64,000 nucleotides of DNA, taken from a virus. Positions 4,348 to 64,000 of this stretch are shown here, in pieces. The position numbers and the translations under genes are program-made. How positions within the stretch are numbered: position 1 is the stretch's first letter; the number at the start of each line of letters is the position of its first letter. The DNA lies in the IMG/VR virus record IMGVR_UViG_3300032117_000009, positions 60,689-124,688 of that record; one strand, written 5' to 3'. Under the pieces are notes generated by a model. The model had not been told where the DNA came from, searched no databases, and worked only from the letters and a program-made list of their open reading frames with translations.

Positions 4348-6252
4348 TTACCAATTCTTTTTCTTTGGCGTAAATCTTTCTATGTGAGTTATGCGCTCAG
4401 GTGGGATAGGAGCTTTGGAAACAATTTCTTCTTTACCTATATCGGTAAAACCAGGTCTATCACTATGAAAATTATCTAAATCTACATGGTATAAATCAAA
4501 TTCTTGCGGAGCTGGCCTTCCACTTCTTTCATAAGTATGTTGAATATGATGTGCCCATATTTCTTTGTCTTCATCAGTTGGAGACATATATACATTTGCG
4601 CCAGGATCGATGTACCAATTGTGGTGTTCAATACCGAAAGTTTTCAAACCTTCTTGTTCAATTGATTCACGATTATGAGCAGGAGATACATGGTACGGAA
4701 GAGCTTCTTTGATAGAAGCTTCGACCTGAGGCCCAGTAATATTTGCTTGATCAATTATATATTGAGCGCCTTCAGGATCTTGTGCACCAGGAGCATGTAG
4801 ATTGCTATCTACTGGAGCATCATACCCTTGACCATTTACAGATGCCCAGAATTGCTTAATATGAGTAATCCTATCAGGTGTGATATGACCTTTGTAAACT
4901 ATTTCGTCAACACCCATGTCAGTTTTACGTTTTTCTACCGGAAGACCTTCTGTATTAACATGCCAAAGATCAAAACTATCTGCATCTTGTCGTTCTAAAT
5001 CTATATCTTCTAGATCTGGATACCCAATTGGATCATCAGAATTCCATCTATCCATTTCATGTCGTGATTTAATTTCTTGGCTATGTCTTTCATTACCTAT
5101 TTGATAACCCCAAAGATCTGCATCTTTATCAGTAGGAGACATATAAACTAATGGTTCTATACTAGATGGCCATTTATTTGATTCTTCAGTTCCTGGCAAT
5201 AAACCATTTTCTTCAATAGATTCTCTATGCTCAACTGGGGAAACATGATACGGAATAGCAGTTCTTAAAGAAGCAGTTCTTACATTTGATGGGTGAGTAA
5301 GGCCAATTTGAGTTGGAGTCATGTTTCCTGGGACATAACCAAATTGATCAGGTTCTACTCCAGGAAATTGTTTTGCCCAGCCTCTGCCTTTATAACCATG
5401 ATTATTAGATTCACCATATCTATAAACAGTTACTGGAACATGTGTAAGGCCAAGTTCTTTTGCAGCTATAATTCTATGGTTTCCTTCACCAAGATATGCA
5501 TATCTGTCATTCATATTATAGCTAACTTTTAATGGGTTGATAAAACCATTTTTCAGAAGTGAGCTTTTAATATTGTCTACTGTTGAACGACTATTACCAG
5601 TATCATAAATTGGGTCAAGACGATCAAATTCTCTAATTCTATGAACGTCTTCTAAAGGTACCCATTCAACCTTAACGTGGTTAGCATCACTTTTTTTATT
5701 TGCTTTTGTTAAAGCAATGATATTACTAGTTATATCATTAATAGAAGCATTTTTATTTAAATCTACGTGAAGATTACGAACAGTCTTTGCTTCGGATCTT
5801 GTAGATGCACTTTCTATAAAATAATTATTTAAAATTTTATCCTTGATATCATTTATTGATAAATCTTCTTTGTCAAGAGTAATAACAAAATTATTGCTAT
5901 CTTGCGGAGAAACAATAACAGGATTAAGATTATACCCCTGGAATTGAAGCATCAGGGATTGAATAATTGCTTGTTTGTTTTCTTCAATAATATAAGGAGA
6001 AAACTTACAATTATATTCTATTTTACCATTATCTTCTGTTTTTATAGTTTTAGGTCCATATCGAACATCATCAGTTCCAAGGCCTTTAATATCCCAAAAA
6101 TTGCCAGCATTCTTTTCCATCCACAAATCATGATGTTTTTGTGAACAAAAAACAAGCTCATCTAAACCATTTGAGGCTGTTAACCAATTCCAAGACGTTG
6201 AATTAGGATTTTTGCAATCAATATAATCACAATATATATTGTTAAGTGTCAT
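4348..6252 (-). CDS. ParB-like plus two ADP-ribosyltransferase-like modules
   Basis: A 634-residue multidomain protein. Residues 8-45 form a small zinc knuckle (YCDYIDC ... FCSQKHH). Residues 196-285 match the ParB/Srx fold, with the nucleotide-binding motif GEGNHRIIAA. Residues 334-470 and 519-628 are two copies of a module beginning [IL]PYHVSPxxxRESIExxGL, followed by VYMSPTD and closing with ERITHI. This resembles ADP-ribosyltransferase (Arr or RNA 2'-phosphotransferase-type) folds. Each module follows a short A-S-[LI]-[RK]-x-A segment, and the protein ends KKKNW. A virion-associated or injected host-modifying effector is an inference. Confidence 0.75.
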   Translation of the reverse strand: MTLNNIYCDYIDCKNPNSTSWNWLTASNGLDELVFCSQKHHDLWMEKNAGNFWDIKGLGTDDVRYGPKTIKTEDNGKIEYNCKFSPYIIEENKQAIIQSLMLQFQGYNLNPVIVSPQDSNNFVITLDKEDLSINDIKDKILNNYFIESASTRSEAKTVRNLHVDLNKNASINDITSNIIALTKANKKSDANHVKVEWVPLEDVHRIREFDRLDPIYDTGNSRSTVDNIKSSLLKNGFINPLKVSYNMNDRYAYLGEGNHRIIAAKELGLTHVPVTVYRYGESNNHGYKGRGWAKQFPGVEPDQFGYVPGNMTPTQIGLTHPSNVRTASLRTAIPYHVSPVEHRESIEENGLLPGTEESNKWPSSIEPLVYMSPTDKDADLWGYQIGNERHSQEIKSRHEMDRWNSDDPIGYPDLEDIDLERQDADSFDLWHVNTEGLPVEKRKTDMGVDEIVYKGHITPDRITHIKQFWASVNGQGYDAPVDSNLHAPGAQDPEGAQYIIDQANITGPQVEASIKEALPYHVSPAHNRESIEQEGLKTFGIEHHNWYIDPGANVYMSPTDEDKEIWAHHIQHTYERSGRPAPQEFDLYHVDLDNFHSDRPGFTDIGKEEIVSKAPIPPERITHIERFTPKKKNW

Positions 6253-61189: not shown

Positions 61190-61720
61190 TTACTGAATTA
61201 ATGAACCAAAGCTGGCTCTAGTTGTTACTTTTGTATCTTGTTTTCTAGCCCCTCTCATGGCCATGCACAGGTGTTCAGCTTTAACCTTTACGGTTATCCC
61301 AGCTGGTCGCAAACTGCTTTGATATAAAGCTGTTGCTATCTGCTGTGTCAGTGTTTCTTGAGACTGAAGCCTTTTTGAGTAAACGTCTATAACTCTACCA
61401 AATTTTGATACATCTAAAATTTTTCCATCTCTTGGAATGTATGTAATATCAACATTACCAAAAAATGGTATAAAATGATGTTCACAAACGCTATAAAACT
61501 TTATATCATTTACTGATATAAGATCATTTGCGCTAGATTCATAGATTGAATTTTTAATAAGGTTATTGACATTTTGCGTATAGCCATGAATCATTTCGTG
61601 CAAATAAAATTTTGCAACTCTTTCAGGCGTATCTTTTAACCCTGGTCTATTTACATCTTCTCCTGGAATAGCTTCCAGCATTTTGTAAATTGCTGTTTGA
61701 AAATCGGTAAATGCACTCAT
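61190..61720 (-). CDS. folE: GTP cyclohydrolase I
   Basis: A 176-residue protein, a short but complete FolE: the zinc motif CEHHF (C79, H82), NRPGLKDTPERVAKFY, then EHLCMAMRG with C152, and QSQETLTQQIA. It converts GTP to dihydroneopterin triphosphate. In phages the product most often feeds 7-deazaguanine (queuosine/archaeosine-like) DNA modification, rather than folate. No QueC, QueD or QueE was seen in this window. Confidence 0.93.
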   Translation of the reverse strand: MSAFTDFQTAIYKMLEAIPGEDVNRPGLKDTPERVAKFYLHEMIHGYTQNVNNLIKNSIYESSANDLISVNDIKFYSVCEHHFIPFFGNVDITYIPRDGKILDVSKFGRVIDVYSKRLQSQETLTQQIATALYQSSLRPAGITVKVKAEHLCMAMRGARKQDTKVTTRASFGSLIQ

Positions 61721-61758: not shown

Positions 61759-61789
61759 ACTATACATGCGTTTTGGCCTGATTTATCAA
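61759..61789 (-). promoter_or_regulatory. putative promoter TTGATA-19-TATAGT
   Basis: Minus strand: TTGATA (61784-61789) and TATAGT (61759-61764, with TG before it) upstream of folE. Spacing of 19 is long, so confidence is low. Confidence 0.35.
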
Positions 61790-62844
61790 AAAGTTGTTAT
61801 ATCTCCGCCATAAACTAACATGTCGTCTATTTCATCATAAGGTTCATAAAAATATGGGAACTGCATTGAACCAATATCACAATATCTTGGGATATCAACT
61901 TCCCAACCAGCTACCATATGACCCAAAGTATTTTCTTCAATAGCTATTGAGCTAATAATTTTTTCATATTCAATAACGAATTCTTCAATTTCTTCTTCGT
62001 TTTTTGTTTCTATTAATCTAACATCGCCATACAACGGTGAAAGAAATTCTAAATTATCAAAATTAGATTTTTTTACGTTTGGGAAAATAAAATTCGTAAG
62101 TGATTGCTCATGTACTATTAAAGATTTTTTAGATAAAGGTAATTTAGCCCTAAATTCTTTAATTATATCTTGTTCATTGTTAATACAATCAGCTATGTAT
62201 ATTAACTGATCATCCGAAAGCTTTCCTAGAGTAATATAAAATTTTGGAGATAAAGTGCCTTCGCCAAAAAAAGAAATAAAATCTCCAACTAACCCTGCTA
62301 GATTATCTTCGTTTTCCAAGCATTCTTTACTTACAATGCCAAAACTGAATTTTGGTTTATGCAAATAAACATTTCTATTCTTTTTTGGCTCCATATTAAA
62401 GAAAGATAAAGTGTCTATGCCACCATAAACAATTACATCAGTTGCATCTTCTACATCTCTTAACCATGCACCACTTGACGATAGCTCATCTTTTTTGCTT
62501 TGATAAACAGAATATTCACCATCATTATATTTTGAATTTTGCTTAAACATTTCCTCAAGCAAAATTGCTTCATCTTTTCCTGATACTTTTACGGTTATAT
62601 TTTGTGGTTTCGCTAACGCATAGGCCAGAAAAGCACTTTTTGTCACGAGCATTGGTGTTTCATAAGAACCAATTATAACAATTTTTCTATTTGAAGTATC
62701 TGTCTTGTCAACTCTTTCCCAAAAATTTTTTGGAATTTCGTTATGAGACATTGACATGTAATAATCGTCTTCTAAAAACAATCCATTCTCGCTACATAAT
62801 CTAGCAATAGAGTCAGATGGATCAATAATATAATTAGAATTCAT
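61786..62844 (-). CDS. LuxC-like acyl-CoA reductase, nucleophile position altered
   Basis: A 352-residue protein. VIVYGGIDTLSFF near 138-149, then KPKFSFGIVSKECL, then ISFFGEGTLSPKFYITLG near 190-206, match the LuxC/acyl-CoA reductase family. In the family, the GxAC-x-SP segment holds the catalytic Cys; here the corresponding position reads GTLSP (T197), so the nucleophile appears to be lost. Cys175 is nearby but out of register. It follows a LuxE-like gene in the same operon. Function may be altered or non-enzymatic. Confidence 0.7.
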   Translation of the reverse strand: MNSNYIIDPSDSIARLCSENGLFLEDDYYMSMSHNEIPKNFWERVDKTDTSNRKIVIIGSYETPMLVTKSAFLAYALAKPQNITVKVSGKDEAILLEEMFKQNSKYNDGEYSVYQSKKDELSSSGAWLRDVEDATDVIVYGGIDTLSFFNMEPKKNRNVYLHKPKFSFGIVSKECLENEDNLAGLVGDFISFFGEGTLSPKFYITLGKLSDDQLIYIADCINNEQDIIKEFRAKLPLSKKSLIVHEQSLTNFIFPNVKKSNFDNLEFLSPLYGDVRLIETKNEEEIEEFVIEYEKIISSIAIEENTLGHMVAGWEVDIPRYCDIGSMQFPYFYEPYDEIDDMLVYGGDITTF

Positions 62845-62874
62845 AATTTTGTTTACTTTCTTAAATTGATCCAG

Positions 62875-63900
62875 CTATGTTTCTTTTATTATTATACCGC
62901 CTCTTGGCCCAATTTTACCATAATAATTTGTAAGTATAAATGGGCAAGACCAAAAATTTGCTAAATCATATATTGCAATTTTGCCATATTGCCCAGTTTT
63001 AACATCATTATTGTTTTTTTCATCAACTACCCTAACTCTTATCCATGGGCTAAAAAAATATTCTGTAGTCTCAGGCAATTTATTATATTTGCATGATTCG
63101 AGTATTGATTTTTTTGTTAAGGAATAAAATTGAGATGTTAAGCCTGGTACGTATGCCAGCTTAATAATACTATTTAAATCAAATATATTGCAAATATTAT
63201 AGATATCTTCTAAAGAACTTTTTGCACTTATTTCTTTTAATTCTATAAACATTGAACCGAGTGGCAGATGTATGCCATCTACATAATTTTTAGATTCAGC
63301 ATTATATTTTTTAACAAGTTCTTGTATCATTACGCTTGTAACCATAAACACTGTTGGTATCTTAACTTTTATTTCTTCATTTTCTTTTTCTACAAGTTTT
63401 TCTACCAGTTGAGCAAAATCATTTATTTCGTTCAAATAAGTTCCATGAAAAGATTCAAAAATATATTCAATTATATAATTTTCTAAGCTTTGCTCAGAAT
63501 ATTTAGCTATGCCAACATAATTAATCCATGGGACCCAATCATCTTCATTTAGAATATTTTTTGGGAATGACTTAGCGATATTATATTTATATAGCTCTGT
63601 ATCTCTAATATAATGCTCGCTACTATTAGTTTTTAAAACAATGCCAGGATATGGCATTTTTGTATCTATTTTTAAGCCCAAATTTTGCCCTGCGGATAAA
63701 TTATTTATTGGCATAAGGGGTATATCATCTAAATTTGAAGCAATTTTTCTACCGCAAATAGAATAGTAATAATCGTTCATTTCATGATGCAATCTATACA
63801 ATTTTAAAGCCATTGCTTCAAAATCTGCATCTGATCTGCTGCCTGAATTAATAAATTTTTTGGTTTCTAATATACAGTTTTCAAGCATATTTGTTTTCAT
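62875..63900 (-). CDS. LuxE-like acyl-protein synthetase, degenerate core
   Basis: A 341-residue protein. IPLMPINNL (60-68), a YIRDTELY segment near residue 100, and the C-terminal YGKIAIYDLANFWSCPFIL, then KIGPRGG match LuxE/acyl-activating enzymes. The usual nucleotide-binding SSGTTG-like loop reads LKTNSSEHY here, so ATP use is uncertain. LuxE normally activates a fatty acid for transfer to LuxC. The pair is in transcription order luxE-like, luxC-like, then folE. An alternative start is at M5. Confidence 0.72.
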   Translation of the reverse strand: MKTNMLENCILETKKFINSGSRSDADFEAMALKLYRLHHEMNDYYYSICGRKIASNLDDIPLMPINNLSAGQNLGLKIDTKMPYPGIVLKTNSSEHYIRDTELYKYNIAKSFPKNILNEDDWVPWINYVGIAKYSEQSLENYIIEYIFESFHGTYLNEINDFAQLVEKLVEKENEEIKVKIPTVFMVTSVMIQELVKKYNAESKNYVDGIHLPLGSMFIELKEISAKSSLEDIYNICNIFDLNSIIKLAYVPGLTSQFYSLTKKSILESCKYNKLPETTEYFFSPWIRVRVVDEKNNNDVKTGQYGKIAIYDLANFWSCPFILTNYYGKIGPRGGIIIKET

Positions 63901-64000
63901 TGTAATACTTTAAGTTATTAAACTTTTTTCCTACACTCAATTCATTGCCATTCCATAATGTACCAGTTACCCATTTAGTTTTTATACTATTGAACCCAAG
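63881..64000 (-). CDS. C-terminal fragment of a gene cut by the window edge
   Basis: A 39-residue open frame running off the right edge, ending NNLKYYNENKYA. Its stop overlaps the start of the LuxE-like gene by 20 bases. The other two frames on this strand are closed near the edge. Not recognised; it belongs to the same operon by position. Confidence 0.55.
   Translation of the reverse strand, partial: LGFNSIKTKWVTGTLWNGNELSVGKKFNNLKYYNENKYA

Follow-up and report, generated by a model that had tools for sequence, protein, structure and literature searches.

A LuxE-LuxC pair that looks catalytically dead in a phage genome and its putative origin in 7-deazaguanine DNA modification

The base preQ1 is made from CDG (7-carboxy-7-deazaguanine) through a nitrile by QueC and QueF, and further phage 7-deazaguanine derivatives are reportedly described in a 2023 NAR paper. 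The 7-deazaguanine modification of phage DNA involves FolE, QueD, QueE and QueC, optionally QueF, and DpdA (Hutinet et al. 2019, PMC6884629). Another described system that concerns us here is the LuxC-LuxE fatty acid reductase of luminous bacteria, in which the Cys of the LuxE KGCS motif (Cys364) is the acyl carrier, and LuxC, with Cys286 in the segment YDQQACFSTQ as nucleophile, requires a thioester on that Cys for its chemistry (PMC8301110).

The DNA analysed in this work (the window, a stretch of 64,000 nucleotides) is the last 64 kb of the 124,688-base IMG/VR record of a phage (G000). The final 127 bases of this record are an exact repeat of its first 127, and a 5′-3′ exonuclease gene spans the record junction according to tblastn and the terminal overlap, which indicates a circularly closed and probably complete genome. 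The 3′ end of the exonuclease gene occupies positions 63917..64000 of the window, and the remainder of the gene lies at the opposite end of the record. On the same (minus) strand follow a LuxE-derived protein of 341 amino acids, predicted to be catalytically dead (62875..63900), a LuxC-derived protein of 352 amino acids that has lost its nucleophile (61786..62844), and folE, for GTP cyclohydrolase I (61190..61720; Pfam 1.2e-55). An earlier note on this DNA had described the LuxE-like and LuxC-like pair with folE directly behind it; both ORFs are there, and folE starts 65 bases past luxC. The order of the partners, which the note took as canonical, is the reverse of the luxC...luxE order of lux operons, and agrees with that of the closest bacterial pairs. 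Directly after folE lies a gene for an Hfq-like phage protein (60820-61170; Pfam Phage_Hfq 2.3e-8).

The sole relative that was found, carrying the pair with its sites intact, is the IMG/VR contig 3300002098_000026 (L002), an incomplete record of 90.9 kb that shares the exonuclease-LuxE gene order and the Hfq-like protein. Viral contigs were scanned with LuxC and LuxE, with alignments of each, with the helicase and with two hand-made DNA motifs, and gave either L002 or nothing; genome contigs of GTDB gave no further relative, and the INPHARED phages no credible LuxE or LuxC match. L002 carries LuxE-LuxC in one operon with FolE, the combination for which the earlier note had suggested a search in related phages.

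Direct family matches of the window LuxE are weak and become solid once the sister sequence is used. The protein alone has no match in Pfam and, as a single sequence against the PDB, gives the LuxE 7xc6_E with a weak E-value of 0.025. Its orthologue in L002 (about 36-38% identity) matches Pfam LuxE at 1.5e-5, its score alone of 24.5 bits being slightly below the PF04443 cut-off of 24.9, as well as the solved LuxE 7xc6_E at 1.5e-7, and as a query it retrieves full-length bacterial LuxE on plasmids (26-30%, E-values down to 2e-27), with LuxC as the following gene in the loci that were annotated. The two-sequence profile of both phage proteins reaches the PDB LuxE at 1.6e-9, and hhalign places the phage profile on bacterial LuxE over the whole length (E=2.4e-33, 338 columns), so that the window LuxE belongs to PF04443 by homology over the protein length, through the profile with L002. 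In the case of LuxC, Pfam PF05893 alone gives a weak E=0.08 for the window protein and 0.02 for that of L002, the two being 48-49% identical. The phage LuxC profile aligns with bacterial LuxC by hhalign with 86% probability and E=5e-6, over only 93 columns in the nucleophile region, and membership in PF05893 by sequence homology is found with a similarity limited to about 95 residues around the nucleophile. A tblastn search of plasmids with the L002 LuxC found no relative, so that the LuxC link is one by profile and gene partnership.

The residue losses in the window proteins, as read from alignments with L002 and four bacterial homologues, are firm. In LuxE, the adenylation loop ([T/S]SGTT in bacteria, SSGTT in L002) is a gap between residues 90 and 91 (63628..63633, minus strand, as for the sites that follow), in agreement with the SSGTTG-like loop that the earlier note had reported as missing. 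The YGxTE-type motif, which reads MYGMTELS/T in bacteria and YSMSELSS in L002, is YVPGLTS in the window, with VPGLT at about residues 250-254 (63139..63153) and the Glu lost, and the TED motif is now TNY at residues 324-326 (62923..62931). The C-terminal GRV...KGCS tail is absent: DEKGCSLTY of L002 aligns with EQKGCSLSM of the LuxE 7xc6, and the window protein ends as ...GGIIIKET, with its last codon and stop at 62875..62880. Loop, Glu, TED and KGCS are all present in L002 and the four bacterial LuxE, and two features of PF04443, the SSGTT loop and the acyl-carrier Cys, are missing from the window protein. The four bacterial LuxE share 108 invariant columns, of which 63 are conserved in L002 and 36 in the window; 30 bacterial-invariant positions are lost in the window only and 3 in L002 only. 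Among the neighbouring orthologues, LuxE shows the lowest conservation (36%).

The nucleophile column of LuxC holds Cys in all four bacterial proteins (QQGCYSP or similar) and in L002 (GEGCLSP, codon TGT), and Thr197 in the window (GEGTLSP, codon ACT, 62254..62256, minus strand). The nucleophilic Cys of PF05893 is, as the earlier note had read from the letters GTLSP, replaced by Thr, and its description of both active sites as degenerate can be extended to the YGxTE-type Glu, the TED and the acyl-carrier Cys tail of LuxE. Apart from this residue, the LuxC nucleophile region (GEG.LSPKFY) is retained, as are the invariant Lys and Asp. Of 126 LuxC columns invariant in bacteria, 27 and 26 are kept in the two phages, and the unique losses are 7 in the window, the Cys among them, versus 6 in L002, which shows no acceleration in the window. 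Sequencing error was rejected as the cause of the site losses, since at least two substitutions separate the Cys codon TGT from the Thr codon ACT, and the losses of loop, motif and tail are independent. A further feature of PF05893 is an ALDH-like fold with an NADPH site; the AlphaFold models of the window LuxC and LuxE from two-sequence alignments reached pLDDT values of 43 and 38, and were discarded. By their sequences, both proteins look catalytically dead.

The operon of L002 runs in the order exonuclease, LuxE, LuxC, class III aminotransferase, QueD, QueE, FolE, a dCTP deaminase/dUTPase-like protein and the Hfq-like protein, and the reading frames of LuxE/LuxC, LuxC/aminotransferase, QueD/QueE and QueE/FolE overlap or abut. 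The aminotransferase (Pfam 5.4e-77) matches the general acetylornithine family and no specific one; aminotransferases of Mycobacterium phages gave partial, distant matches and were left out of the comparison. QueD scores above its NCBIfam cut-off, QueE matches its PHROG at 1.8e-60 and the FolE ORF can be aligned with phage FolE. Upstream of the operon, positions 5071-5976 encode a DpdA-like protein with 26% identity (E=1e-4) to an annotated 'DNA guanine transglycosylase' of Flavobacterium phage immuto. The L002 protein also resembles one encoded next to QueC-QueD-QueE-FolE in Bacillus phage BSTP5, and all three have ILDN..EL and S.DT blocks in common. This DpdA call is one of similarity to an annotated protein, not to a family model, and a PDB search with the DpdA alignment gave no transglycosylase. 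A BSTP5 gene annotated as 'putative integrase/recombinase' (L020:5821-6609) aligns with DpdA-like DNA transglycosylases and lies inside a Que cluster, and by this alignment it is probably misannotated. Models of QueC and QueF, which detect these genes in most of the control genomes, found none in the 90.9 kb of the L002 record, which may be incomplete. From the set for 7-deazaguanine DNA modification, L002 has FolE, QueD, QueE and a DpdA-like DNA transglycosylase, and lacks QueC (and QueF) in this record. An ORF without assignment (L002:3688-4359) and a GNAT-like acetyltransferase (L002:4352-5011) precede the DpdA-like gene; both are missing in the window phage along with that gene, which suggests a possible part for the two in the modification, such as an acylation of preQ1.

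No QueD, QueE, QueC or QueF was found in searches of the genome of the window phage, and the same holds for radical SAM proteins, class III aminotransferases and relatives of the DpdA, GNAT and dCTP deaminase genes of L002. The divergent L002 protein escapes the TGT model of Pfam, and the absence of a TGT from the window phage was therefore judged by tblastn and with a three-sequence profile. These absences, as judged from sequence searches, are good to the sensitivity of the searches, and FolE is the only member of the modification set that was found. FolE keeps its catalytic motifs, evolves somewhat faster in the window phage and has lost about 13 C-terminal residues. In the alignment with FolE of L002, immuto and BSTP5, the missing part (window gene at 61190-61720) is an R.E(W/F)L.L segment present in L002 and other phage FolE. 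Near the locus, both phages also encode a thymidylate-kinase-like P-loop protein (L004:1784-2443 in G000, L002:2791-3441), and genes annotated as similar kinases adjoin DpdA in immuto and BSTP5. The Walker A motif of this kinase-like protein is an intact GTGKTT in L002 and GTDISI in the window phage (GTDIS for GTGKT), with the Lys lost.

A TPP riboswitch lies upstream of the nearest bacterial LuxE-LuxC pairs at seven of the eight loci examined, often with an SDR and transporters. These riboswitches precede plasmid LuxE-LuxC(-SDR) operons at L021:1390-1497, L022:7719-7848, L023:5736-5868, L026:4737-4866, L027:2697-2993, L028:4715-4842 and L029:4130-4257. Their frequency favours a heteroaromatic substrate over fatty acids, and these pairs may act on a ring carboxylate, as would be expected for salvage of the thiamin pyrimidine. 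The plasmid pairs are annotated as fatty-acid enzymes, and look like a thiamin-precursor acid reductase.

Our main reading, to which we would give a probability of about 0.5, is that the two proteins derive from a functional LuxE-LuxC carboxylic acid reductase, which in L002 would serve the conversion of CDG to preQ1, and that the window pair is retained non-catalytically. In L002, LuxE would activate a carboxylate by adenylation with ATP and hold the acyl group on its C-terminal Cys362. From there the group would pass to Cys197 of LuxC for reduction by LuxC with NADPH to an aldehyde, from which the aminotransferase encoded by the next gene would form a primary amine. The most likely substrate would be CDG, the product of the nearby QueE (three genes on from LuxC), which would be converted through 7-formyl-7-deazaguanine into preQ1 in place of QueC and QueF, and the DpdA-like transglycosylase would insert preQ1 into DNA. 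We infer this replacement from the fact that CDG is a carboxylate made by the neighbouring genes and preQ1 is the amine that the pathway needs. The suggestion in the earlier note that the pair acts on a nucleotide would in this sense apply to the ancestor (a CDG carboxylate, from the FolE-QueD-QueE-DpdA operon with its aminotransferase in L002), and not to the window pair. The CDG route comes from a single operon, QueC and QueF could lie in the missing part of L002, and host enzymes could do their work. A competing explanation, which we regard as quite possible, is that the three L002 proteins make another amine, not from CDG, with preQ0 or preQ1 obtained through host QueC and QueF. Hosts that supply parts of the pathway are discussed by Hutinet et al. 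(PMC6884629), L002 is incomplete, and the aminotransferase fits only the general acetylornithine family; but the three genes sit between the exonuclease and QueD with overlapping or abutting frames, QueC and QueF were not found in 90.9 kb, and a CDG carboxylate and a preQ1 amine fit the neighbours. This explanation is about the ancestral function and is compatible with a disarmed pair in the window. The combined proposal, that the group once had (window phage) or still has (L002) a route to preQ1 bypassing preQ0 and that the window pair is kept for a structural or binding role, is a tentative one, below even odds.

With regard to the window branch, bacteria and L002 share the intact sites, so that loss in the window phage is the simplest reading of the direction of change, as we infer it from sequence. 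The genes for the aminotransferase, QueD, QueE and the DpdA-like protein would have disappeared from the phage, and every known acyl-transfer residue from LuxE and LuxC, both proteins remaining full length and seemingly constrained; a dismantled modification pathway with three retained proteins disarmed is the simplest reading of these data. Plain decay, in which 7-deazaguanine modification was recently lost and LuxE, LuxC and the kinase are functionless drifting relics, agrees with the absent pathway genes, the missing tails of LuxE and FolE, the lost Walker A of the kinase and the low conservation of LuxE (36%). Against it, LuxC is not accelerated, and both frames are open despite extensive catalytic losses. 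Neutral evolution simulated from the window sequences left a stop-free frame in 1-3% of runs at 13% of residues changed and in at most 0.25% at about 29% changed, and at the change observed (for LuxE, 18 of 51 aligned invariant sites, or 35%, changed in the window versus 3 of 36, or 8%, lost in L002 only) the neutral chance would be below about 0.3% per gene, an argument that is supportive and not proof, as it mixes highly conserved sites with a simulation of average sites and as FolE, too, evolves somewhat fast in this phage. The frames were thus probably maintained after the loss of catalysis, and plain decay seems to us unlikely. Much less probable still is that the window pair is an enzyme of changed mechanism, in which, for instance, Thr197 serves as nucleophile or the host provides another acyl donor. 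The retained GEG.LSPKFY region of LuxC and its invariant Lys and Asp would suit it, but LuxE without adenylation loop, YGxTE-type Glu, TED and acyl-carrier Cys leaves no activation step, and the thioester on which LuxC chemistry depends (PMC8301110) cannot be formed by Thr. For similar reasons the different group transfer offered by the earlier note finds no support for this phage, as both window proteins are devoid of known acyl-carrying residues, and those same losses support the non-catalytic complex that it also considered. A retained non-catalytic pair is what we would probably expect in the window phage, with LuxE and LuxC acting together, for example as a binding or scaffold complex.

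In the literature searched, which leaves many subscription papers outside, there was no mention of a LuxE-LuxC route to preQ1, and no paper on TPP-riboswitch LuxE-LuxC operons or a thiamin-precursor acid reductase was found. If true, a carboxylate reductase with a transaminase would be a new chemical solution to the step from CDG to preQ1, the scope of LuxE-LuxC would be widened from fatty acids to nucleobases, and the genes would offer a marker for modified-DNA phages overlooked by QueC searches. The window phage would in turn be a natural loss of function in an otherwise unchanged gene order, and a good case in which to ask what makes a phage hold on to dead enzymes.

In comparison with known systems, the TPP-riboswitch operons of bacterial plasmids (Pantoea, Azospirillum, Lactiplantibacillus and Niallia) share the LuxE-then-LuxC order of the phages, and their LuxE is a whole-length homologue (26-30% to L002) with SGTT, TED and KGCS as in L002, motifs that are all absent from the window copies. 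However, these operons continue with an SDR reductase (expected to take the aldehyde to an alcohol) and/or transporters, and not with an aminotransferase. The fatty acid reductase of luminous bacteria (PDB 7xc6) aligns with L002 at both the LuxE acyl-carrier Cys and the LuxC nucleophile, whereas neither LuxD nor luciferase was seen, the LuxC of the phages falls about 130 residues short of the bacterial LuxC aligned here, and the window pair has neither Cys. Finally, L002 resembles the phage 7-deazaguanine systems of immuto and BSTP5 in its FolE, QueD, QueE, DpdA-like protein and kinase-like neighbour, but shows LuxE, LuxC and the aminotransferase where QueC/QueF would be expected, while the window phage keeps FolE only.
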